60,405 nucleotides of DNA from a bacterium (GTDB taxonomy: Bacteria; SZUA-182; DTGQ01). The stretch is from positions 1-60,405 of the forward strand of contig JBFLZW010000079.1 of NCBI GenBank assembly GCA_040755755.1. Direction: 5' to 3'. Made by a program: the position numbers and the translations under genes. This document shows, one piece after another, positions 19,789 through 49,047 of the stretch (the stretch's first letter is position 1; the number at the start of each line of letters is the position of its first letter). The notes under the pieces were generated by a model. It had not been told where the DNA came from and ran no database searches. It saw only the letters and a program-made list of their open reading frames with translations.

Positions 19789-22700
19789 ATGTTAAAAAAA
19801 ATCAGCTTTACAGGAGTATCGTTAACCTTATTGCTACCGGTATTGCTTCCCTTTTTTCTTACCCGGTCCATCCATGCCGCCAGTGTGGGTTCTGACGGCG
19901 GCATCACCGTCAGCCTCTCCTACAGCGGTGATCTTGACAGTGACATGGTTACTGACAACGATGGCCACCCCATCCTTGATGATGAGGGGAATCAGTGGCA
20001 GGCCAGGGACAAACTGGAGCATGACCTTGGGCTCTTCGCTCAGCATGTTTTTGAGATGAGCGAAGGGAAACAATACATCCGGCGAGTCCTCATCAGCAAT
20101 GAGGCCAGGGCCTGGGCAAGCGCGGATATCCGCTGGGATATGGGTGCCGGGACTTCTACGGCAACTCTAGGCGGATGGACGAACAGCCTGCTGTATCACC
20201 TGAACATCCGCCGGGGCTGGAGGACCAGTATTCACGATGTGGCCTCCCATGAATTCGGGCATTACTTCTATGGTCTTTCCGATGAATACGCCAAAGATTA
20301 CGGGTATTATTCCGGTCATTTTCCTGGTGGCCCCAATTTTGATGTCCGGGAAACGGTCGGTGACCCCGTCACGGTTATGAACGCCAATACACCTCACCAG
20401 TTCTGCGACCATACCGATCATGAGGTCACCATTGAATATACGCACCCTGATACCGGGACGCTGGTGACCCAAACCCTGACTCCGGCGCTGCTCGACGACG
20501 GAGACCCTGACAATGACGGCCCGATCAACAATTGGATCAATCAGTTGTATGCACTCGACGGCTGGGCAGTTGCATGCCTGAATCATACCGACATGATCGG
20601 ACACCACACCGATGGAGTCAGACCGGTTATAGATTTTTCAACCATGCCTGAAGTCGAATTGAGATATGTCGAGCATGACGGCACGGTTCCGGGAAGAATC
20701 CTGCTCCTTGACCGGTCCGGCAGCATGAGCCATGAAGAGTATGGCATTCCGGCCAGTCAGTATGTTCAGGAGGCTGGCATGTTTTTGTATCACAGCTCGG
20801 AGCCGGACGATTACATCGGCACCTTCGCTTACAATCACGAGGTTGACACGCTCTTCGGTTACGATCATTACAACAGTGCCAGCACTCTGGACCATTTCCT
20901 CGATCCGACAGGTCTAACCGACATTCACCTGGCCCTGGAAACTGCTCTTGACACCTTTGAGGCCACCCATGGAGCGGACCATATCGCCGGGGCGGAAATC
21001 TTCCTGATGTCCGACGGAAAGCAGACTACCGGGGATGACCTGTGGACCCAGGTAGAGCGGGCCAGAGATGCCGGAGTCGTCATCCACACCTTCTCCTATG
21101 GTGATGCGGACGAGACGACCATGCAGAATATTTCCACGGAAACCAGCGGCGACAACGTCATCATGTCCGAGAATGACGGGAGCCTGATGAATCTGAAAAT
21201 GGGCATAGTCAAATCGATAGCCAGAAAGCGCGGATGGTCCGCCATGTACAATTATTTTGGAACCCTCGAGTGGAAGGCACTGAATGATAACATTTCCTAC
21301 AGCACGGTCAGCTTCAGGGTTCCTGAAAATTCAAAAGATGTAAAGTTTTACCTGTTTCCGGAAAGCGTTAATGTACAGCGGTATTCCTTCAGTATGGCCA
21401 ACCCGCCTGGAACCAGCACCTATACCAGCAGCCTCGACAATACCCAGAGCAAGGGGCGGTTCTTAGGGAAGAAGGCGAAAAGTCCTCAGTCAGGTCAGTG
21501 GACCGTGAATATCATGGGAACCCGGCAGACAGGAACAACGGCCGCATACGCGGGACCGTCAGTGAGTCAGGGGAGAGTATATCTTTTAGCCTATATCGAT
21601 AATCCGGACATCAATGCTCAGGTCTGGCTTGACAAACCTTTGATCCATGTTGGGAAGGATTACCCCAAAGTGCCGGTTTATGCTTCGGTTTCCAATAAAT
21701 ACCTTTTAACCAAAGCAAATGCCGTATCCCGCATCTATGACCCGAATGGCGTCCAGGTAGGCACCATCGAGATGTCTGATAGCGGTAAAAATGGGGATAA
21801 AATTTCTCAGGATGGTATCTACACCGGCATTCTCGATACCTCAAAGCTGGTCATTACTTCATCAACCTTCGCAACTGCTTACTTCCGGCGGGTAATCAGC
21901 CGGTTTACGATCAAGACCAGTTTTGCGGTTACGGAATCCTCGGTTCCAGCTCCGAATACGGAATATGAATACGGAACAGACTATAAGGCGATCCTGAAAA
22001 GCTTTAAGCCATCCAAATTCGATGCCTATGCGGAAGTCGCCGGGGGCCTGACGCAAACCAGTTATCAGCCCTATCTCAGTATCAAACTGGATAAGAGTAT
22101 CATTATGGAACAGGGAAAACGTTACCAGGAATGGATTACCATCGGTAATGCATCTCCCGGTGCGGAAAGCCTGAGAATCAACCTTGGCCAGGGGATAAAG
22201 GTGGGAAGCATTACCGCGGATCGTACCAGGGAAAATAAGTATCTGGTTGAATTTATCGTCAGTCAAAACGCATTGTTAGGGAAACGGGACCTTTCTGTTC
22301 AGTTCGGCAATACGGTTCTCACCAAAAGCGGCTACGCAGAGATAATTCCTGGTGTCAACCGGGAAATCTGCGATGGCAGGGACAACGATGGTGACGGCAA
22401 AATAGATGAGGACCTGGTCAGAGCCTGCTCCACTGCCTGCGGGAGCGGCACGGAAGTCTGTCAGAAGGGCAAATGGGTCGGCTGCACTGCCCCCCAGCCC
22501 CAGGCCGAAGTGTGCGATGGCAAGGACAATGACTGCGATGGCAAGATCGACGAAGACCTGGTAAGAGCCTGCTCCACTGCCTGCGGGAGCGGCACGGAGG
22601 TTTGTCAGAGGGGTCAATGGGTCGGATGCACTGCCCCCCAGCCCCAGGCCGAAGTGTGCGATGGCAAGGACAATGACTGCGATGGCAAGATCGACGAGGA

Positions 22701-23382
22701 CCTTACAAAACTCTGCTCTGATGGAAAAACCAGGGCCACGTGCCTGAATGGTCAATGGGTCGGCTGTCCCGGACCCCAACTGTGCCAGGAAAGTGATTCA
22801 GGAGAACTGGACGTGCCCGGTGTCGAAGGCAAAAAGGAGGGAGAAGTCCGGATTCCGGTGAGGATCCAGTCCGCTTCCCGTCAAATCAGCAGCCTTGGGT
22901 TTGAATTTACTTATGATCCGACTGTCCTGGAGTATCTTGCCTATGAGCGGGGAGATCTCGTTACTTCATTCAATATGTTTGATGTCAGCAAGGTCAACCC
23001 TGGCCGGCTCAGAATCGCCGGGATATCTACCGCCAGCGGTATTCCCAAGAAAGCAAGCGGGTATATTGTCTGGCTGAAATTTAAGGTAACCGGAGGGACG
23101 GAAAATATGTGCTACCTCCTCGGCCTGGAAAAACTGGCCGATGAGCTGACCGGGCTTTCCTCCAGTCATGGCTGTTTCTGTATCAGAACCAATATCTGCA
23201 CCGGAGACCTGAACGCAGATGGGGCAATCACTCCCAAGGATGCGCTGATTGCATTCCAGTGTTATCTGGGATTAGTCCAATGCCAGGAATGTGTCGATGT
23301 CAATCAGGATGGCACGTATTCCCCGGCGGACGCCCTCTGCCTGTTTAAGAAGTATCTGGGTCAACCTTCCTGTCTGGATTAG
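19789..23382 (+). CDS. Secreted CLCA-like metallohydrolase/VWA protein with cohesin and dockerin
   Basis: 1197 residues with a signal peptide (to about residue 30). Residues 40-290 hold a zinc-hydrolase-like domain with HEFGHYFYGLSDEY at 154; the HExxH plus DEY pattern is that of CLCA-family proteins. A VWA domain follows (about 300-480) with MIDAS DRSGSMS and LMSDGK. A beta-sandwich region comes next, then three MopE-like metal-binding units from about 860 (CDGKDNDCDGKIDEDL) alternating with Cys-rich linkers, a cohesin-like domain (about 1010-1130), and a type I dockerin (GDLNADGAITPKDAL, DVNQDGTYSPADAL). It may self-process and form calcium-dependent assemblies on the surface. A strong AGGAGGAG site precedes ATG 19789, and a strong terminator follows. 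Confidence 0.85.
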   Translation: MLKKISFTGVSLTLLLPVLLPFFLTRSIHAASVGSDGGITVSLSYSGDLDSDMVTDNDGHPILDDEGNQWQARDKLEHDLGLFAQHVFEMSEGKQYIRRVLISNEARAWASADIRWDMGAGTSTATLGGWTNSLLYHLNIRRGWRTSIHDVASHEFGHYFYGLSDEYAKDYGYYSGHFPGGPNFDVRETVGDPVTVMNANTPHQFCDHTDHEVTIEYTHPDTGTLVTQTLTPALLDDGDPDNDGPINNWINQLYALDGWAVACLNHTDMIGHHTDGVRPVIDFSTMPEVELRYVEHDGTVPGRILLLDRSGSMSHEEYGIPASQYVQEAGMFLYHSSEPDDYIGTFAYNHEVDTLFGYDHYNSASTLDHFLDPTGLTDIHLALETALDTFEATHGADHIAGAEIFLMSDGKQTTGDDLWTQVERARDAGVVIHTFSYGDADETTMQNISTETSGDNVIMSENDGSLMNLKMGIVKSIARKRGWSAMYNYFGTLEWKALNDNISYSTVSFRVPENSKDVKFYLFPESVNVQRYSFSMANPPGTSTYTSSLDNTQSKGRFLGKKAKSPQSGQWTVNIMGTRQTGTTAAYAGPSVSQGRVYLLAYIDNPDINAQVWLDKPLIHVGKDYPKVPVYASVSNKYLLTKANAVSRIYDPNGVQVGTIEMSDSGKNGDKISQDGIYTGILDTSKLVITSSTFATAYFRRVISRFTIKTSFAVTESSVPAPNTEYEYGTDYKAILKSFKPSKFDAYAEVAGGLTQTSYQPYLSIKLDKSIIMEQGKRYQEWITIGNASPGAESLRINLGQGIKVGSITADRTRENKYLVEFIVSQNALLGKRDLSVQFGNTVLTKSGYAEIIPGVNREICDGRDNDGDGKIDEDLVRACSTACGSGTEVCQKGKWVGCTAPQPQAEVCDGKDNDCDGKIDEDLVRACSTACGSGTEVCQRGQWVGCTAPQPQAEVCDGKDNDCDGKIDEDLTKLCSDGKTRATCLNGQWVGCPGPQLCQESDSGELDVPGVEGKKEGEVRIPVRIQSASRQISSLGFEFTYDPTVLEYLAYERGDLVTSFNMFDVSKVNPGRLRIAGISTASGIPKKASGYIVWLKFKVTGGTENMCYLLGLEKLADELTGLSSSHGCFCIRTNICTGDLNADGAITPKDALIAFQCYLGLVQCQECVDVNQDGTYSPADALCLFKKYLGQPSCLD
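22425..22707 (+). repeat. Tandem 141-bp repeat inside the VWA gene
   Basis: Two nearly identical 141-base units encode a CDGKDNDCDGKIDEDL motif plus a Cys-rich linker (starts of the CDGK motif at about 22510 and 22651). A more diverged first unit precedes them. The close DNA match indicates recent duplication and possible length variation. Confidence 0.75.
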
Positions 23383-28087: not shown

Positions 28088-28866
28088 ATCTGCGAGTAAA
28101 ACTCGCCGATGAAACCCAAAAGACTGGGCAATCAGCAGAGCCCGGATAAAAAAGATCAGAGGTGAGTTTTATTCTCTCGAAGCTGAAAGCTGCCTGAAAA
28201 TTTTCGGGAAGACGCGCAACGAGATTTAATTATGGGAGTTGGGGGACCAAGAAGGCCTGAATACCAATGAGACCATCCGCCGATGATGCTCAGGATGGGT
28301 GGTCTTATTGAAGAGGGCGATTTCCCTCCTAAAAATTATTCCATATAATCTTATCCAGGTAAATATATAATAGGCTTATTCCTATTTTTTCATAGGGATA
28401 GAGGTGTCTTTTTATGCCCGCCGCCAGACCCCGCAAGATGAGGGAATCCGGAATCATGGGGAAGATAAGCTTCTTAATTCAGCGGCGCGATGTTCTTGCC
28501 TGATTTATACGCTTTTCAGCTACAGGGAGAAAAGTACCTACTCAGGTAGAGAGGACAGGTATTGAGACTGGAAAGGAGATAATACAACTGTCAGAGGGGC
28601 TCTCTGCTGTCAGCCTCACGAAGGTTTGGTACACGACATGGCAAATCCGCGGCCGGTTAGACTCAACCAGGGGATCGCGTACAGCCTTTCGGCCTCCAGG
28701 TTCAGCCACCCGAGCAGCTAAAAAGAGAATATACAATCTGAGCTTGACGAGGGTAATCAGAAGGAGGTGATTGCAGTAACGTTTGGTCTTTAAGCTCTGT
28801 GAGAATTCAGTTATCTTATCGAAATTCACAAAAATCTAATTGTTATTACATGTAAGGAGAGAGATC
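28088..28866. other. Long structured-looking leader upstream of the YG-repeat gene
   Basis: No protein gene is supported in 779 bases. There is a GACCATCC / GGATGGGTGGTC pairing at about 28270-28305, possibly ending the rpsT transcript. At 28620-28770 several GC-rich short stems occur (GGTT AGACTC AACC; AGCC TTTC GGCT-like), then an AAGGAGGTGA Shine-Dalgarno-like sequence (about 28761) without a start codon at the right distance. This may be a regulatory RNA leader; it matched no riboswitch consensus I know. Confidence 0.35.
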
Positions 28867-29538
28867 ATGAGAAAGAATTGGTTATTGAAAGCTGCCACGG
28901 CTGTCATTACTCTGTTTGTTATCGGGTCGTTAGTTGCAGTGCCCGGAGTTAAGGCCCAGGAAGAAAGTAACACCGAGATTGTGAGAGAAGATCAGCAGCT
29001 CCTTTACGGCAGCTTATATGGCAGCGGTCTGTACGGCGGATATGGCCTGTATGGCAGCAGTCTCTATGGAGCTTATGGACTCTATGGCAGCGGTCTGTAT
29101 AGCGGCTATTATGGCCTCGGCAGCCTCTACGGTGGCTATGGCAGCTACGGACTGTACGGCAGTGGCCTCTATGGCGGCTATTATGGCCTCGGCAGCCTCT
29201 ATGGCGGTTATGGCATCTACGGACTGTACGGCGGCAGCCTGTACGGTGGCCTTTATGGATTATATGGCAGCAGCCTGTATGGTGGATATGGCCTGTATGG
29301 TGGCCTCTATGGTGGTCTCTATGGTGGTCTCTATGGAAGCATGTACGGCTATGGCAGTCCTTTTGGAATCAACAACCTGTACTACACAGTCGAGACGGGT
29401 ACCGGCGTAAATTACCAGATACCCTTTATGCAGATTGCTCCACTGCTTGGCGTGGCTGGCCTCTATAATCAGCTTTTCCCGAGTCTGTTCACTCCTGCGA
29501 CAACTTCGACCGGTGCTCCGGGAAGCGTAATTTTCTAA
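28867..29538 (+). CDS. Secreted Tyr/Gly/Leu-repeat protein 1
   Basis: 223 residues. A signal peptide (MRKNWLLKAATAVITLFVIG... cut near VKA) is followed by about 120 residues made almost only of G, Y, L and S in repeats such as LYGSGLYGGYG. A short ordinary tail follows, ending GAPGSVIF. It resembles structural, cohesive or amyloid-like Gly/Tyr-rich proteins in composition, not in a named family. ATG 28867 was chosen for its AAGGAGAG site; an upstream in-frame ATG would spoil the signal peptide. It is a paralogue of the gene at 31182 and has its own terminator. Confidence 0.85.
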   Translation: MRKNWLLKAATAVITLFVIGSLVAVPGVKAQEESNTEIVREDQQLLYGSLYGSGLYGGYGLYGSSLYGAYGLYGSGLYSGYYGLGSLYGGYGSYGLYGSGLYGGYYGLGSLYGGYGIYGLYGGSLYGGLYGLYGSSLYGGYGLYGGLYGGLYGGLYGSMYGYGSPFGINNLYYTVETGTGVNYQIPFMQIAPLLGVAGLYNQLFPSLFTPATTSTGAPGSVIF

Positions 29539-29577
29539 GCGGCTATCTGCCTTAATGTTCTCCATTTGCAGAGCGCA

Positions 29578-29616
29578 GGGGGGATATCCATACCAGGGTA
29601 TCCCCCTGATTATTTT
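29578..29616 (+). terminator. Terminator after YG-repeat gene 1
   Basis: GGGGGATA (29579-29586) pairs with TATCCCCC (29599-29606); the loop is 12 bases and a T-rich run (TGATTATTTTA) follows. It starts about 40 bases after the stop. Confidence 0.7.
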
Positions 29617-29718
29617 AATAGTTCCCCTCCTCCTTTCCCCCCGGCTTTTCCAGAGGAACCCATTCCCATAGCTCTCAAACCCAAGGTGACTGTTTTCTCA
29701 CATTTTTTCCTAAAAAAT

Positions 29719-29748
29719 TTGCTCATTCACCCTGTTTCGTGATATATT
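29719..29748 (+). promoter_or_regulatory. Possible promoter of the EIIA/zinc-ribbon gene
   Basis: TTGCTC (29719-29724), 18-base spacer, TATATT (29743-29748). It lies 280 bases upstream of the gene. The rest of the 489-base gap shows no gene. Confidence 0.35.
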
Positions 29749-30027
29749 GTGAAGGAGTAGAGATTTAAACTGTAATTCATTAATAGAATAGAAAACAGCT
29801 TAAACATCCTGGAAAGCTTTTGAACCCATCTTTATGGCTTATATGGCAGTGTTGTATGTCAATATTCAAAGAACATACCATACAGCTAATCTTCGACCGA
29901 AAACTCAATATCTTTCAAAACTTGCCTGTATCTTTTTATCCGTTAATCCATGAAAGGGTTCAATATAAACCTTGAGTTTAATAGAAACGATTCTATGAGT
30001 AACTTAACATAAGGTGAGGTAAACGAT

Positions 30028-30840
30028 TTGAATGCCGGGCAATTGTTCTTAAATCATACTAAATTATCTGAGCTGATCGATCCTAAGATGGTAATTTTCA
30101 ATCTCCGGGGTAGGGAGAAGACATCCGCCTTAAAAGAAATGGTTGACTGTGTTTATCAGTTCCATGACTTTGAAGGGAACAAAGATGTTTTGGAAAGGAT
30201 ACTGGACAGAGAGTCCCTGTCGTCAACAGGGGTAGGGAATGGTTTTGCTTTCCCGCATGCCAGGATAAAAACACAGGACGGACCGATTATCTGCCTCGGA
30301 ATAGCCAGAGACGGCATTGATTTTAATGCAATCGATGATAAACCGGTCCATGTTATTCTCTTGATTATCTGGAAACCGAATGTCCCCGGCCTCTTTAATC
30401 ACCTGTTTGGCGGTCTGGCCAGATTCCTGCTGGGAAATCCCGGAATGAAAGAAAAACTCCTCGAAGTCCAGTCCTATGAGCAGGTAGCCCAGATTTTTTC
30501 GCAGGTCGAATTGCAGATTTCCCCTGATCACGCTAATATCCAGGGGGCCAAACTGCTCTGGAAGCTCCAGACACTGATGAATCTGCTGAAAGGTATCGGC
30601 CCCGGAGTGGAAAGGTCTCAAATTGAAAGAGAGATCAAGCTTATCCGGGAAGAATTGGACCAGTCGATTGTAGCCCGATTCGATCGGCTGACCGAGAAAT
30701 TCGGGGCCGGAGTTTTTAAAATTAAAGATGGAGTATGCCAGGGCTGCATGATTAAATTGTCCACTTCACTCGCGGCTACGGTACATAACAGTAATGATAT
30801 TTTCGTGTGTCCGAAGTGCGGGAGGTACATTGTCGATTGA
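30028..30840 (+). CDS. PTS EIIA (PtsN-like) domain fused to a zinc ribbon
   Basis: 270 residues. Positions 10-155 are a fructose/nitrogen-type EIIA domain: RESLSSTGVGNGFAFPHARI carries the phosphorylatable His (near residue 75). A helical linker (about 165-225) leads to a C4 zinc ribbon, GVCQGCMIKLS...FVCPKCGRYIVD, like the C-terminal zf-RING_7 domain of the CdsZ/DUF164 family. It would take a phosphate from HPr-type proteins and may signal to RNA, DNA or protein through the ribbon; no EIIB or EIIC genes are nearby, so a regulatory role is more likely than sugar uptake. TTG start at 30028 with AAGGTGAGG upstream. It lies between the two YG-repeat genes. Confidence 0.85.
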   Translation: MNAGQLFLNHTKLSELIDPKMVIFNLRGREKTSALKEMVDCVYQFHDFEGNKDVLERILDRESLSSTGVGNGFAFPHARIKTQDGPIICLGIARDGIDFNAIDDKPVHVILLIIWKPNVPGLFNHLFGGLARFLLGNPGMKEKLLEVQSYEQVAQIFSQVELQISPDHANIQGAKLLWKLQTLMNLLKGIGPGVERSQIEREIKLIREELDQSIVARFDRLTEKFGAGVFKIKDGVCQGCMIKLSTSLAATVHNSNDIFVCPKCGRYIVD

Positions 30841-30985
30841 TCCTGGCCAGTAGTATGGTTTCGAGCTCTCGTTATCGATAAATTGACTATTGACTGTTGT
30901 TAAGCTCCGCCGCTGTTTTCCTTCCAGGATTACTCCTGGAGATGGCTCCCTCGTGAAGCAGGCTGGTTCTTCCTCCTGGTGTGCA

Positions 30986-31011
30986 GTCGTGATTTTTGCA
31001 AAAATCACGAC
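30986..31011. repeat. Perfect 26-base palindrome
   Basis: GTCGTGATTTTT, GC, AAAAATCACGAC. It lies 145 bases after the EIIA/ribbon gene and 171 before YG-repeat gene 2. It may be a terminator (T-run inside the stem) or a dimeric-protein site. Confidence 0.55.
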
Positions 31012-31031
31012 CTTCAGACATGGCTAACACT

Positions 31032-31068
31032 CCCCTTGCCGGTAAACCTCATGTTTACCGGCAAGGGG
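31032..31068 (+). terminator. Strong 16-bp hairpin in the leader of YG-repeat gene 2
   Basis: CCCCTTGCCGGTAAAC (31032-31047) pairs perfectly with its complement at 31053-31068; the loop is CTCAT. The following TATTTCTG is only weakly U-rich. It could end the EIIA transcript or serve as an attenuator for the next gene. Confidence 0.5.
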
Positions 31069-31181
31069 TATTTCTGTCCGGAAGGAGGTGGTGGGCAAAG
31101 CAGAAAAACACGCATCGTTCTGTTTTTGCCATATCTTTTTCTCATTATTTACTAATGCCTGGTTATATGAGGAGTAAGATC

Positions 31182-31706
31182 ATGACGTCCAAAAAAATTC
31201 TCGGTATTTTTATTGCCCTCTTAGCTTGCCTTATCTTTTCCACTGCAACTCCGAAGACCTCGGAAGCCTACTATGGCCTTGGCGGCCTGTATGGCCTTTA
31301 TGGCGGCCTGGGATATTATGGCGGGCTCTACGGACTGGGCCTCTATGGACTGGGCCTCTATGGCGGCCTTTACGGCATGGGCCTCTATGGCGGGCTCTAC
31401 GGACTGGGCCTCTACGGACTGGGCCTCTATGGACTGGGCCTCTATGGCGGCCTTTACGGTATGGGCCTCTACGGCCTTGGAGATCCCCTGGGCCTCGGCC
31501 TCTATGGTATGGGCCTTTATGGCGGCCTGCTGGGAGGCATGCCGGGCTTACTGGGCTTGGGCGCTCTCGCTGGTCTCAGCGGCCTGCTGGGAAACTGGGG
31601 AACAACGAGCATCACCACGACTTTCGGAACCCCCCCGGCCACAGTCACCACACCAGCAGTTACACCAACAGCTCCAGCAACCACACCTTCTATTATCGTA
31701 ACCTGA
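31182..31706 (+). CDS. Secreted Tyr/Gly/Leu-repeat protein 2
   Basis: 174 residues. Signal peptide MTSKKILGIFIALLACLIFS with a cut near TSEA, then about 85 residues built from LYGLG, LYGG and GMG units. A more hydrophobic LLGG-rich part follows, then a Thr/Pro/Ala-rich tail ending TTPSIIVT. It shares composition, signal and a short hydrophobic end with the gene at 28867. ATG 31182 was chosen because GAGGAG lies at 31170 and the signal peptide begins there; the longer open frame is not used. Likely a structural surface or matrix protein. Confidence 0.82.
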   Translation: MTSKKILGIFIALLACLIFSTATPKTSEAYYGLGGLYGLYGGLGYYGGLYGLGLYGLGLYGGLYGMGLYGGLYGLGLYGLGLYGLGLYGGLYGMGLYGLGDPLGLGLYGMGLYGGLLGGMPGLLGLGALAGLSGLLGNWGTTSITTTFGTPPATVTTPAVTPTAPATTPSIIVT

Positions 31707-43343: not shown

Positions 43344-46193
43344 CTACCCTCTCCTCCTTCCGGTTTTTCTCCTTCTTCCGGAAGGGACAGCAGGCAGGCT
43401 GCGGATTTTCTTCAGACCAGCGGGGTTTTCTTCCTGGGCATCGTCTTTCGTCTCTCCGGATGGTTCCTGAGCAATCGACATCTGCCGGGCATGCCAGGAT
43501 GTGCCATCCCAACTGGCAGTGTAAATACCCCAGTCATCGGCTGTCTCTGCCTTGCCGTCCTTATCCTGTGCCCAGACAGCGAAAGGCTTGTGGGCTGTTG
43601 TATAAGCAACAGCGGGTGATTCAGCCAGAGATGGCCGGGAAATGACCCTGGGCTCAGACCATTGGCTGCCGTTCCACAGCGAGCCATAGACACAAGAGTC
43701 TTTACCTGACTGGTTGACCCAGACAGCCGCTATTTCCCCATTGGGACCGGCGGCAAGAGCGACCTGCTCATTAGTGCCGGGGAGTTTGGCCAGCGGTTTC
43801 GGCAGGGTCCACCTGCCATCTATCCGCTGAGAATACAGAAGGTTCGATATGCCAAAGGCCTGAAAGATCGCTTCGACCGAAGACCGCTCGTAATCCAGAT
43901 CGTCATTGGAGGAGCTTGACCAGACAGCCAGAGGGGTGCCGCGGGAGTCAAAGACCAGGGCCGGATGTTGATGAAAGTCAATCTCCGGGGTCACTTCGAC
44001 CGGACTGCTCCAGCCCTCGCCGGTATAGGTGGCGGCATAGATCCTGGTGCCAAGACTTGAGGCAGGCAGGGCTTTAGCCCAGACCGCCAGGATTTCTCCG
44101 GACTTGCTTCTGGCTACGGATGGAAGTCCATCATTGTAGATATCGCCTGAGATATCCCCCAGCACGGCCTTTCCCTCGTACACGCCACCGGTTCCGATCA
44201 GAGGTTCCTTAACCAGCTCCAGGACCTCATCCACCAGGATATTGCTGTCCGCCATGACGCGGGTCATGGTTTTACGCAGCCTGTCTTTCCTCGACTGCAC
44301 CATCAGGGGCTTGGGGGAGAGACTGAGATTACCCTGGTTTTTGGAGAAATTAGGATCGAGCAATCCTGCTGTCTGCTCGGAAGGAGCGGGCTCTTCTCCC
44401 CAATAGACAGCGGGATTGAACCAGGGGCTTATTCTCTGAAAATAGGGAGAATTGGGGTCGGCCCACCACGGGGTTCTCCAGCATCCTTTTTTTCCGGCGG
44501 AGGCATCGGGATTTCGCCATCTGCCCGCCAGTTCCCTGACAGACCAATCCATGTTGAATCTGTAGAGCAGAGCTGCCCAATCCCCGCCGAATCTGAGCGC
44601 CCCGTTCAACACAATGACAGGTTCCCGGGAAACCGAATACCCTTGATTTGAAATAGTATGAGTGAATACATACGCCCCTGCCAGAAGAACAAACCCCTGA
44701 AATTTTTCCGATAAAGAGCTGAAATTATCCTGGGGACCCATGCCGATGACAATCTGAGTATCGAACTCGCGCGGAGTCTCAGGATTATTCGGAAATCTGG
44801 CATAGGAGAATGATATACCGGCAGCGCCAGCCACTCCCACTCTGGTTGTGCCAACCTGCTGGCCGCACAAATTCAGCGGGATAGGATTGGAAAGATATAA
44901 AAAGGATGTACTTCCTCCAACAGTCGCAAGCGTTTCCTCGACAGGAAAACGGCAACCCCCGGCAGGGCTGGCAGAAGTAGGTATCGCCACCTCGCCGAGA
45001 TTGAATACATCAAAGCCCAGAGAAAGATGAGGACCGAGATCCAGTACGGCCACCAGTTCGTTGACAACTGCCGGAGTCAGGAAAGGAGAAGGATCGCGGG
45101 GGGTAATGCCTGAATTACCGCAGAGAAAGTAAGCTATCTCCAACTCAGCCGTGTCCCCGATAAAGGGTATGCAGCTTGGGATACTGATATCGAGCCTGGT
45201 CAGAATGATTGATACGCAGACTGAATTGAGAAATGGAGGGATAGGCCCGGTCAGGGAAATCGGGGGCGGGACCTGGCCCACCCAATTCGAAGGCGGATCC
45301 TGGACCCCATCGGCTGAAGGCGAAGGCGCTGCCCGGCCATCGGCGGCTGGAGCTGCCGGTGTGCTCTGACCCTGGTCCGCGGTGACTGGTGCCGGCAATG
45401 GGGCCTGATCTCCGGTCTCGGTACCGGAGGGAACTGAAGCTATAACCTGCTCTCCATCGAGAGGCAGACCGCTTGCGGTAATTACCTGATAATAGAGATC
45501 CGCATCATCCTCCAAAGATGCCCGCTGCAGCCAGAGCATCAGAGGATGGTTGCCGCTGTCCAGGGTCAGAGCGATGCCATAGTCATCATGGCTGTCTCCG
45601 GTGAGTGCCTGCGGCTCGCTCCAGCTTATTCCTCCATCTCCCGTAAGCGTGCCCTTCGAGCCCATGATTTTCTTGGGAGCGGTGAAGGACTCCCAGGCAC
45701 AGAAAAGACTTGCCGGTTCGCTCTGATCTCCTGATGCATTCTGGTCGGAGGATGGGTCCTGGCCGGTGGATGTTGCAGTACTCTTTCCGGCCTGCGGAAT
45801 AATGACAACTATAGGGCGGTTTCCCCCTTCACCAGGCATTTTTCCGGTCCTGGTCCAGGTTCCCCCCTGGTTAACCGCCCAGAAAAGCTCATTGCCACGC
45901 TCCCAGACCAGATAAGCATTCCCCTGATCATCATGGGCCAGCGACGGATTATGATCCGGCTCAATCTCCTTTTCCTGACCGGATTCCTTTTTCCTTCGAA
46001 TACCTCCCGGTAATCGCGGAAGCCCTTGCAGCCTTTCAGCGGAAAGTCCTTCCAGCCCCCTGTTTTTCCCTTCTCCTCCCTGAAGCCGTCTTCTCCCTCC
46101 CAGCACCCCTGCCGGAATTGAGTTGCCCTGCACCAGGGCAAGGAGCATGACAATGAAAATGAGGCTTTTTCTCTTCAAGTTGTAAAAACACAT
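43344..46193 (-). CDS. Large secreted protein, tandem paralogue A
   Basis: 949 residues. Signal peptide near the N-terminus (about residues 8-30), a segment with Asp-box/BNR-like strands (HNPSLAHDDQGNAYLVWERG; GGISWSEPQALTGD), a Pro/Ala/Ser-rich linker (about 260-310), a central domain of about 270 residues (DLGPHLSLGF, RFGGDWAALLYRF) that I do not recognise, then more BNR-like strands (HPALVFDSRGTPLAVWSSSS; GEIAAVWVNQS). The C-terminus is very basic (SGRRRKTGRRRG). It is a diverged duplicate of the next gene. ATG 46193 was chosen for its AAGGAG site. Function unknown, probably surface binding. Confidence 0.75.
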   Translation of the reverse strand: MCFYNLKRKSLIFIVMLLALVQGNSIPAGVLGGRRRLQGGEGKNRGLEGLSAERLQGLPRLPGGIRRKKESGQEKEIEPDHNPSLAHDDQGNAYLVWERGNELFWAVNQGGTWTRTGKMPGEGGNRPIVVIIPQAGKSTATSTGQDPSSDQNASGDQSEPASLFCAWESFTAPKKIMGSKGTLTGDGGISWSEPQALTGDSHDDYGIALTLDSGNHPLMLWLQRASLEDDADLYYQVITASGLPLDGEQVIASVPSGTETGDQAPLPAPVTADQGQSTPAAPAADGRAAPSPSADGVQDPPSNWVGQVPPPISLTGPIPPFLNSVCVSIILTRLDISIPSCIPFIGDTAELEIAYFLCGNSGITPRDPSPFLTPAVVNELVAVLDLGPHLSLGFDVFNLGEVAIPTSASPAGGCRFPVEETLATVGGSTSFLYLSNPIPLNLCGQQVGTTRVGVAGAAGISFSYARFPNNPETPREFDTQIVIGMGPQDNFSSLSEKFQGFVLLAGAYVFTHTISNQGYSVSREPVIVLNGALRFGGDWAALLYRFNMDWSVRELAGRWRNPDASAGKKGCWRTPWWADPNSPYFQRISPWFNPAVYWGEEPAPSEQTAGLLDPNFSKNQGNLSLSPKPLMVQSRKDRLRKTMTRVMADSNILVDEVLELVKEPLIGTGGVYEGKAVLGDISGDIYNDGLPSVARSKSGEILAVWAKALPASSLGTRIYAATYTGEGWSSPVEVTPEIDFHQHPALVFDSRGTPLAVWSSSSNDDLDYERSSVEAIFQAFGISNLLYSQRIDGRWTLPKPLAKLPGTNEQVALAAGPNGEIAAVWVNQSGKDSCVYGSLWNGSQWSEPRVISRPSLAESPAVAYTTAHKPFAVWAQDKDGKAETADDWGIYTASWDGTSWHARQMSIAQEPSGETKDDAQEENPAGLKKIRSLPAVPSGRRRKTGRRRG

Positions 46194-46245
46194 GATGTCT
46201 TTCTCCTTATTATTACTTCCCAGACCTTTCTCAGTACCGAGATTC

Positions 46246-49047
46246 TTAATTGCGCAAGGCGGCGGCCGTACTCCTCCTTCTTCCCGCACGGTCTTTTAAT
46301 CTCCTTCCGGACGGAAAAATATCTTTTTGCCGCCCGGGAAGGATCGTCTGTTCTTTTTCTTCCTCAGCAGGTGATTCTTCGCCAATCGACAATTGCCGGG
46401 AATGCCAGGATGTGCCATCCCAACTGGCAGTGCAGATTCTCCAGTCATTGGCTGTCACCGCCCTGCCGTCCATATCCTGTGCCCAGACAGCGGAAGGCTT
46501 GCGGGCCGTATAGATAACGGCGGGTGATTCGGCCAGAGCCGCCCGCGAAATAACCCTGGGCTCAGACCATTGGCTGCCGTTCCACAGCGAGCCGCAGACA
46601 CAAGAGCCTTTGTCTGACCGGTTGATCCACACAGCCGTTATTTCCCCATCGGAACCGGCAGCAAGAGCGACCTGCTCGCTGGTGCCGGGAAGTTTGGCCA
46701 GAGGCTTCGGCAGTGTCCACTGGCCATCTATCCGCTGAGAATAGAGAAGGCCGGATTTGCCAAAGGCCTGAAAGATCGCTTCGACCGAAGACCGCTCATA
46801 ATCGAGACCGTCATTGGAAGAGCTGGACCAGACAGCCAGAGGGGTGCCGCGGGAGTCAAAGACCAGGGCCGGATGTTGATGAAAGTCAATCTCCGGGGTC
46901 ACTTCAACCGGACTGCTCCAGCTCCCGCCGGTATAGGTGGCGGCATAAATTTTGCTGCCAAGGCTTGAGACTTCCAGGGCTTTGGCCCAGACCGCCATGA
47001 TTTCTCCGGACCGGCTTCTGGCTACAGCCGCAAGTCCGTCGTTGTAAATATCAGATGAGATATCGCCCAGCACGGTTTTCCCCTCATACACACCACCTGT
47101 TCCGATCAGAGGTTCCTTGACCATATCCAGCACCTCATCCACCAGAGCATTCCCATCGGACATGATGCGGGTTATGGTTTTGCGCAACCTGTCTTTCCCC
47201 GACTCCACCATCAGAGGCTTGGGGGATGGACTGAGATTTTCCTGGTTATTCAGGAAATTCGGGTCGCTTAAGCCCGCTGTTTCCCGGGAGGGATCGGACT
47301 TGTATCCTCCGTAGACAACGCGATAGAGCCAGGGGCTTATTCTCTTGAAATAGAAGGAATTGAGATCCGCCCACCAGGGTCTCCTCTTCTGGCAGGATGA
47401 GGCATTGGGATCACGCCATTGCCCCGGAGTGTAGGTTCTGCTGAATCTATACAGCAGAGCTGCCCAATCGCCGCCGAATCTGAGTGCTCCTCTCACGGCG
47501 ATGGCGGGACCACTGGTAAAGGAACAGCCCTGGGCTGAAAGGGTGTGGGTAAATGAATACCCGCCTCCAACGATCACAAAACCCTGGAATTTATCCTGAA
47601 AAGCACTGAAATTAGCCTGGGGACCCATGCCTGCGGCAATCTGGGTCACGAATGCACGAGGGGTTTCAGGATTATTAGGGGATCTGACAGAGGAATAGCT
47701 TATACCGACCGCACCTGCTGCACCTACTCTGGTTATGCCAATCTGGTCGCCGCAAACAACCAGAGGGAAGGGGGAAGAAAGCCAGAGAAAGGAATCACTT
47801 CCACCATAGGAGCATACTGTTTGCTGAACAGCCGAACAGCGGCCTTGAGCAGGGCTTGCATTAGTGCTTGCATTAGTGCTTATCGCTGCCTGGCCGAGAT
47901 CGAAGAGAGTAAAGCCCAGAGAAAGATGAGGACCGAGCGTCAGCTCAGTCACCAGTTCGTCGCTGACCGCCGGAGTCAGAACAGGAGATGAATCACAGGG
48001 TGTAATGCCTGACGTGCCGCAGAGAATATTAGATATTCTCACCCCAACCGTTTCTCCGCATATGGGTGTGACAACGGGAAGGTTGATATTGAACTGGGTG
48101 AGAACAATCGATATACAGGGTGAATTGAAAAAAGGGCCAAGAGGCCCGGTCAGGGAGATTGCGGGCGGGGCCTGGCCTACCCAATTCGATGGCGGGTCTA
48201 AAGCTCCATCATCGGCTGAAGGTGAAGGCGCTGCCCGGCCATTATCGGCTGGAGCTGCCGCTGTGCCCTGCTCTTGCTCTGCGGCGACCGGCGCTGTCGT
48301 CGGTGCCCGATCTCCGGCCCCGGAACCGGAGGGACCGGGAGATGAGGATATCATCTCCTGGTATTCTGAGGATATTTCCTGATTTCCATTGACGAGAGGA
48401 AGACCGTTCGAGGTAATAATCTGATAATAAAGGTCAGCATCATCCTCTAAGGACGCCCGCTGCAGCCAGAGCATCAAAGGGTTGTTGCCGCTGTCCATCG
48501 TCAGGGAGATTCCATAGTCATCATTGCTGTCTCCGGTGAGGGCCTGCGGCTCGCTCCAGCTTATTTCTCCATCTTCCGTAAGTGTGCCTGTTGAGCCCAT
48601 AATTTTCTTGGGAGTGGTGAAGGACTCCCAGGCACAGAAAAGGCGGGGCGGAACGAAGATAACCACCGGGCGATTCCCCCCTTCGCCCGGCATCTTGCCG
48701 GTTCTGGTCCAGTTCCCCCCCTGATTGATCGCCCAGAAAATCTCGTTGCCATGCTCCCAGACCAGATAGGCATTCCCCTGGTCATCACGGGTCAGGGATG
48801 GATTATGGTCCGGCTCCTTATCCTTTGCCTGACCGGAGTTCCTCTTCTTTCGAATACCTGCGGGCAACCGGGGAAGCCCCTGGAGTTTTTCACCGGAAGG
48901 TCCTGTCATTCCTCCTGCCTGAACCTTTCTCCTCCCTCCCAGTGCCCTGGCCGGAGGAATTAAGTTGCCCTGCATCAGGGCAAGAAACATGGTAAGAAGC
49001 ATGGTAATGAAAATGAGACTTCTCCTTTTCAAGGTGCTGAAATACAT
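46246..49047 (-). CDS. Large secreted protein, tandem paralogue B
   Basis: 933 residues with the same layout as paralogue A: signal peptide, BNR-like start (HNPSLTRDDQGNAYLVWEHG), acidic/Pro-rich linker, the same unrecognised central domain with several Cys, BNR-like C-terminal strands, and an Arg-rich tail (SGRRLKDRAGRRRST). Some DNA stretches are identical to A for about 80 bases, while the linker and central domain differ. It is upstream of A by 52 bases and the pair is probably co-transcribed. A GGGAG site precedes the ATG. Confidence 0.75.
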   Translation of the reverse strand: MYFSTLKRRSLIFITMLLTMFLALMQGNLIPPARALGGRRKVQAGGMTGPSGEKLQGLPRLPAGIRKKRNSGQAKDKEPDHNPSLTRDDQGNAYLVWEHGNEIFWAINQGGNWTRTGKMPGEGGNRPVVIFVPPRLFCAWESFTTPKKIMGSTGTLTEDGEISWSEPQALTGDSNDDYGISLTMDSGNNPLMLWLQRASLEDDADLYYQIITSNGLPLVNGNQEISSEYQEMISSSPGPSGSGAGDRAPTTAPVAAEQEQGTAAAPADNGRAAPSPSADDGALDPPSNWVGQAPPAISLTGPLGPFFNSPCISIVLTQFNINLPVVTPICGETVGVRISNILCGTSGITPCDSSPVLTPAVSDELVTELTLGPHLSLGFTLFDLGQAAISTNASTNASPAQGRCSAVQQTVCSYGGSDSFLWLSSPFPLVVCGDQIGITRVGAAGAVGISYSSVRSPNNPETPRAFVTQIAAGMGPQANFSAFQDKFQGFVIVGGGYSFTHTLSAQGCSFTSGPAIAVRGALRFGGDWAALLYRFSRTYTPGQWRDPNASSCQKRRPWWADLNSFYFKRISPWLYRVVYGGYKSDPSRETAGLSDPNFLNNQENLSPSPKPLMVESGKDRLRKTITRIMSDGNALVDEVLDMVKEPLIGTGGVYEGKTVLGDISSDIYNDGLAAVARSRSGEIMAVWAKALEVSSLGSKIYAATYTGGSWSSPVEVTPEIDFHQHPALVFDSRGTPLAVWSSSSNDGLDYERSSVEAIFQAFGKSGLLYSQRIDGQWTLPKPLAKLPGTSEQVALAAGSDGEITAVWINRSDKGSCVCGSLWNGSQWSEPRVISRAALAESPAVIYTARKPSAVWAQDMDGRAVTANDWRICTASWDGTSWHSRQLSIGEESPAEEEKEQTILPGRQKDIFPSGRRLKDRAGRRRSTAAALRN

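Follow-up and report, generated by a model that had tools for sequence, protein, structure and literature searches.

Among described systems, curli (CsgA) are secreted bacterial repeat amyloids that form a surface material, and spidroins make up a multi-gene family in which GGX repeats are combined with conserved terminal domains. The closest counterpart by sequence comes from squid: in two published accounts, the soft segment of the ring-tooth proteins (suckerins) is given as STGTLSYGYGGLYGGLYGGLGYG and described as amorphous, rich in Gly and Tyr, and important for self-healing and adhesion (PMC6393770, PMC4555047).

The window analyzed here, a stretch of 60,405 nucleotides from an uncultivated bacterium (contig JBFLZW010000079.1), contains two plus-strand open reading frames, P1 (28867–29538, ATG start, 223 aa) and P2 (31182–31706, 174 aa), whose repeat nearly matches the squid motif, also written YGGLYGGLYGG. 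The unit LYGGLYGGLYGG of P1 and its siblings is nearly identical to the published squid segment, and the likeness extends to multiple repeat copies, high G, Y, and L content, and predicted disorder; soft modules of the Gly/Tyr/Leu-rich YGGLYGG type are thus present in P1 and siblings. The Pro-flanked beta-sheet modules of the squid proteins, with their alternating Ala, Val, Ser, Thr, and His, are in contrast absent, there being no His anywhere in P1 or P2 and no Ala-rich blocks in the repeat. Lacking Ala/His-rich crystalline segments, P1 and P2 are therefore not suckerins, and the bacterial family is further set apart by its two conserved modules (B and C), its haem domain, and its hydrophobic C-terminal end. 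By analogy, their mode of action may resemble that of the soft half of suckerin, and convergence most simply accounts for the likeness between the squid and bacterial repeats.

Like spidroins, the bacterial proteins form a multi-gene family and join a repeat body to a conserved non-repeat terminal domain, but module B is unrelated by sequence (P1 has no Pfam match up to E 1), no spidroin N- or C-terminal domain family in Pfam matches P1 or P2 up to E 1, and size and domain order differ. The likeness to curli is that of secreted bacterial repeat proteins making a surface material, if the coat proposed below exists; however, no curlin-type Pfam profile matches P1 or P2 up to E 1, no secretion operon was seen in the flanks read, and the P1 repeat is predicted to be disordered instead of a beta-solenoid. 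No earlier description of bacterial proteins like P1 and P2 was found in a search of a collection of open-access literature.

Two Secreted Leu-Tyr-Gly Repeat Proteins

The features of the locus are as follows.

28867–28956, plus strand: P1 signal peptide (residues 1–30, ending in VKA before Q), from the sequence and a model helix at residues 4–23 with high pLDDT; putative cleavage site
29002–29355, plus strand: P1 Leu-Tyr-Gly (LYG) repeat region (residues 46–163), predicted to be disordered, from composition, codon variety, and pLDDT
29356–29499, plus strand: P1 module B (residues 164–211), a predicted beta-hairpin and hydrophobic helix, in six proteins of the genome, from alignment and model
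29500–29535, plus strand: P1 Thr/Ser/Gly tail with hydrophobic C-terminus SVIF, from the sequence
29578–29607, plus strand: terminator-like hairpin after P1, 12 pairs (z −2.2; hits in the region not above shuffles)
30028–30840, plus strand: neighboring gene, EIIA-2 (PF00359) fused to a C4 zinc ribbon (PF02591), from Pfam
31032–31068, plus strand: strong hairpin between the EIIA/ribbon gene and P2, 16 pairs (z −5.9)
31182–31268, plus strand: P2 signal peptide (residues 1–29, ending in SEA before YYG), from the sequence; putative cleavage site
31269–31526, plus strand: P2 LYG(X)G repeat region (residues 30–115), from composition and codon variety
31527–31703, plus strand: P2 Gly/Leu-rich segment, then a Thr/Pro-rich tail with C-terminus IIVT, from the sequence; no module B or C

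A preliminary description made from the DNA sequence had presented P1 and P2 as a pair of secreted proteins, each with a stretch consisting almost entirely of Gly, Tyr, and Leu, that belong to no known named bacterial family. Secretion is supported by a basic and hydrophobic leader in both, running up to an AxA-like site (GVKA before Q in P1, TSEA before YYG in P2) at which cleavage would occur, and by the confidently modeled helix at residues 4–23 of P1. The motif LLAC lies inside the P2 leader, and P2 could accordingly be a lipoprotein. The core repeats are indeed dominated by the three residues (G 39%, Y 28%, and L 18% in P1; G 43%, Y 18%, and L 31% in P2), and the AlphaFold2 model of P1 has pLDDT below 50 across residues 42–165, corresponding to an LYG region predicted to be disordered. 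Neither protein has a match in Pfam or NCBIfam up to E 1.

That description had staked its reading on the repeats being conserved as protein, and they are. The LYG unit is written with 11 different 9-mers over 19 units in P1 and nine over 15 units in P2. Between P1 and its syntenic counterpart in a relative (locus L060), pS is 0.89 and pN 0.11 over 54 module-B and tail codons, and a further four within-genus pairs give dS of 0.59–0.91, dN of 0.08–0.10, and dN/dS of about 0.10–0.13 in the non-repeat part; alignments of the repeat region are less certain and point in the same direction. Synonymous changes thus far exceed amino acid changes, confirming at the level of sequence that the repeats are protein coding and not a product of chance.

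Elsewhere in the window, positions 19789–23382 encode a secreted protein of 1,197 aa that combines VWA, MopE metal-binding, cohesin, and weak dockerin domains in a single chain. At 43344–49047, two large ORFs of 981 and 933 aa lie next to each other; their N-terminal leaders are similar, and the shorter ORF has no Pfam match at E 0.001.

The Neighboring EIIA/Zinc-Ribbon Gene

P1 and P2 flank the EIIA/ribbon gene on the same strand, and the preliminary description took its product as possibly their regulator; in that role, it would sense PTS phosphorylation and control both. Both domains are clear by Pfam (EIIA-2 79 bits against a cut-off of 27; C4 zinc ribbon 34.8 bits). The protein scores below the curated cut-offs of the PtsN equivalog TIGR01419 (56.2 against 138.7 bits) and of the CdsZ zinc-ribbon regulator NF047363 (16.6 against 275 bits, over the last 70 residues only).

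Gene order in relatives argues against this regulatory role. Full-length orthologues of the EIIA/ribbon protein occur in only three of nine genomes: G000 (the genome of the window), G001, and G002. In G002 (L116), murJ and rpsT are followed by a remnant that matches the C-terminal part of P1 (LGMASLYNQLFPNLF...) and then by the EIIA/ribbon orthologue (66% identity), with no P1 ORF and no P2. The G001 orthologue (L115, 87%) sits between polysaccharide-type genes and a contig end, beyond which a P2 could lie; a P2-like ORF is one of three LYG genes arranged in tandem on a different contig (L117). Conversely, G004, a 93% complete genome from another family of the order, has only partial EIIA/ribbon matches but carries a P1-like gene (L060), whose contig ends soon after it. 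The position is exactly that of P1 in the window: a minus-strand murJ-like gene comes first, then a plus-strand rpsT-like gene, then the P1-like gene. The murJ of the window is a Pfam call; the L060 copy and the rpsT genes throughout are what we take them to be by eye. The orthology of P1 and the L060 gene is a matter of gene order alone, since the module-B tree (22 rows, 48 columns) is poorly resolved, with two of 19 inner branches starred and P1 not grouped with L060, and so neither supports nor refutes it.

The adjacency is therefore conserved in no relative in which it can be tested, and the pattern of gene order and orthologues indicates that the P1 and EIIA/ribbon genes were lost and kept independently. 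Apart from itself, the EIIA/ribbon protein has only partial matches in G000, all on different contigs. The remaining LYG family members are scattered elsewhere, and inspection by eye showed no EIIA/ribbon gene in those flanks of LYG and module-C genes that were read. Terminator-like hairpins also separate the genes, the first 40 bases after P1, and fit separate transcription units, although such hits are no more frequent in the region than in shuffled sequence (five against a mean of 5.2). Despite the position of the gene between P1 and P2, control by the EIIA/ribbon protein is very improbable, and it is probably a chance neighbor.

A putative riboswitch upstream of P1 (28540–28740), which looked like structured RNA, was rejected as a control element of the family. 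The region folds no better than shuffles (z +1.5), and positions 28629–28680 are the core of a dispersed intergenic repeat with five other copies in the genome (79–87% identity), none with an LYG gene next to it as far as the flanks were read. The better copies form an imperfect palindrome followed by a hairpin, that of P1 being degenerate. Rfam had no match at gathering score, either across the window or at 20 paralogue loci; the only rows near the genes were far below the gathering scores of their families. An all-against-all comparison of 600-base upstream regions likewise gave no shared upstream element, the matches being mainly close duplicates or run-ins to neighboring or broken LYG genes. 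Downstream of P2 (31746–31818) lies a long hairpin of GGAGCCA/GGAGTCA heptamer-like repeats, to which Rfam gives chance rows of miRNA families.

A Large Family Found in One Order

Although P1 and P2 are both real, as a pair they are not special. Pattern and protein searches found LYG paralogues scattered over many of the 88 contigs of the 5.26 Mb genome, and the family comprises at least 32 ORFs, P1 and P2 included. This count derives from 29 loci and the P1/P2 stretch of the window, where 39 ORFs qualified by LYG repeat or module; seven were dropped, three being GY-rich without LYG and four being fragments (contig ends, masked stretches, or a doubtful start). Three ORFs cut on the N-terminal side by a contig end (L022, L023, and L025) were kept, and two-contig pieces of a single gene are possible only among the dropped ORFs. 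Paralogues were taken from among the matches listed, so that members with LYG only may be missed and 32 is a lower bound. Contig ends hold several LYG genes (L023 at the end of G000:C79, L011, L022, L024, and L025), so that the repeats break the assembly.

Family members join LYG-rich or Pro/Tyr-rich segments to module B, module C, or a monohaem c domain. Among the 32, module B occurs in six, module C in 23, both in two, and neither in five (including P2); one member (L012) has the haem domain. At L028:2757–7481, eight genes for small secreted Pro/Tyr-rich proteins lie in tandem, and three of the encoded proteins have module C without an LYG repeat.

Modules B and C were found, by sequence searches, only in one order of this uncultivated lineage. 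Module B is present in four of 60 genomes searched, G000 included, and a scan of genome contigs gave nine loci in three MAGs, which are the same relatives G001, G002, and G004; module C is present in five of 40 genomes, all of this order. The DNA pattern for LYGG(L/F)YG has 55 forward and 57 reverse matches in G000, against 59 and 62 in G001. Of 188 genomes outside the order, eight had one match each, about the level of the reversed control. One scan of viral contigs with one sibling protein found no viral relatives.

The frequency of end-domains bears on the possibility that the repeats serve chiefly as spacers, in the form of flexible stalks keeping the barrel, haem, or module-B domains off the membrane without forming any material. 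Conserved end-domains (B and/or C) in 27 of the 32 members, the predicted disorder of the repeat, and the existence of Pro/Tyr-rich module-C proteins without LYG repeats all favor it. P2 and four other members, however, have no recognized end-domain to hold out, and tyrosine is kept at 18–28% of the repeat, unlike in a generic linker. We consider the spacer role possible but rather unlikely.

Modules and C-Termini

Module B is about 48 aa long, with 20 invariant columns among six rows, and its AlphaFold2 model, built with only ten related rows, is a beta-hairpin and a hydrophobic helix with block pLDDT of 55–80; the alignment has no match to PDB sequences up to E 1. In the module-B protein L012 and its G001 and G002 counterparts, the conserved C-terminal domain contains one CxxCH motif (monohaem). 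The three genes are L012:2171–2911, L061:5737–6462, and L062:5656–6453. The G002 gene (L062) adjoins three multihaem cytochrome genes with eight, eight, and four CxxCH motifs, and divergent from the L012 gene is one (L012:342–1400) for a 352-aa secreted Tyr/Ser/Pro-rich repeat protein (YGSYSPYSTYGT units) that passes into an LYG repeat, the same pair occurring in L061.

The preliminary description gave both proteins a short hydrophobic end. This end is real but extends over only the last three to four residues (SVIF, IIVT), preceded in P1 by the 48-aa module and a short tail and in P2 by the Thr/Pro-rich tail. Across the family, the last residue is V, I, L, F, or W in 30 of 32 members against 17 of 81 control ORFs, and the last two are hydrophobic, often within PVI, in 26 of 32 against 7 of 81; controls were ORFs of at least 150 aa chosen mechanically from the window and L058–L066. 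Residue composition in the C-terminal stretches of the family itself predicts 33% and 9%, respectively, which controls for composition in part. Many of the 32 are kin and not independent, so that a p-value would carry little weight. The nine members lacking module C, which have otherwise dissimilar ends, show the last residue hydrophobic in seven and the last two in six; the two that have neither end in IVT, one being P2. Relatives' module-B proteins show a weaker pattern than the own genome (15 distinct: 11 ending in V/I/L/F, two in IVT, and two exceptions).

Barrels of the outer membrane carry a BAM-type C-terminal signal, and it is conceivable that module C is an OmpA-like membrane barrel, the hydrophobic C-terminus such a signal, and the family a set of outer-membrane proteins with sticky N-terminal arms. 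The module-C model is an eight-strand barrel (block pLDDT 77–91 except at the ends), the module is low in charge (about 7% D/E/K/R over A1), and VIA-align places a de novo membrane barrel (Z 14.1) and OmpA (Z 13.7) above avidins (Z about 11–12). However, the model comes from an alignment with just two module-C rows, it matches soluble barrels (avidin, designed) as well as membrane ones, and Foldseek ranks soluble designed barrels first; moreover, PVI follows the last strand instead of ending it, and P1 and P2 have no module C. Outer-membrane assembly of this kind is therefore judged unlikely.

Proposed Function

In preference to a membrane-barrel or spacer family, and with about even confidence, we read P1 and P2 as belonging to a large family, specific to this lineage, of modular surface or matrix proteins that are secreted and self-associate. 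The Sec-type leader, the LYG repeat, the optional C-terminal modules, the near-universal hydrophobic C-terminus, purifying selection, and the distribution are documented from the sequences themselves. Self-association is made plausible by the match to the suckerin soft segment, and the fibre, glue, or coat role first suggested for P1 and P2 is likewise plausible.

After export, the flexible Gly/Tyr/Leu segment would associate with itself and with its siblings through tyrosine stacking and hydrogen bonding, as in the suckerin soft segment. Anchoring to the cell surface, or ordering there, might fall to module B's hydrophobic helix and to the C-terminal tail, so that differing end-domains would be displayed in a common sticky coat. 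The flanks read revealed neither an operon partner common to the family nor an export machine. In a bolder version, which we regard as improbable, this lineage independently evolved a suckerin-like self-healing adhesive material, a multi-component coat whose LYG chassis displays ligand-binding barrels and monohaem cytochromes, making it redox-active, and whose conserved hydrophobic C-terminal tail (consensus PVI) is read by a dedicated surface-assembly machine.

If the proposed reading is true, these proteins would give bacteria an equivalent of suckerin and similar structural materials of animals, encoded by simple genes suited to laboratory expression. The shared C-terminal tail may represent a new export or anchoring signal. 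With more than 30 ORFs in a 5.3 Mb genome, a distribution limited to one uncultivated order, and a haem-bearing member, the family makes the cell surface of these bacteria a testable question.
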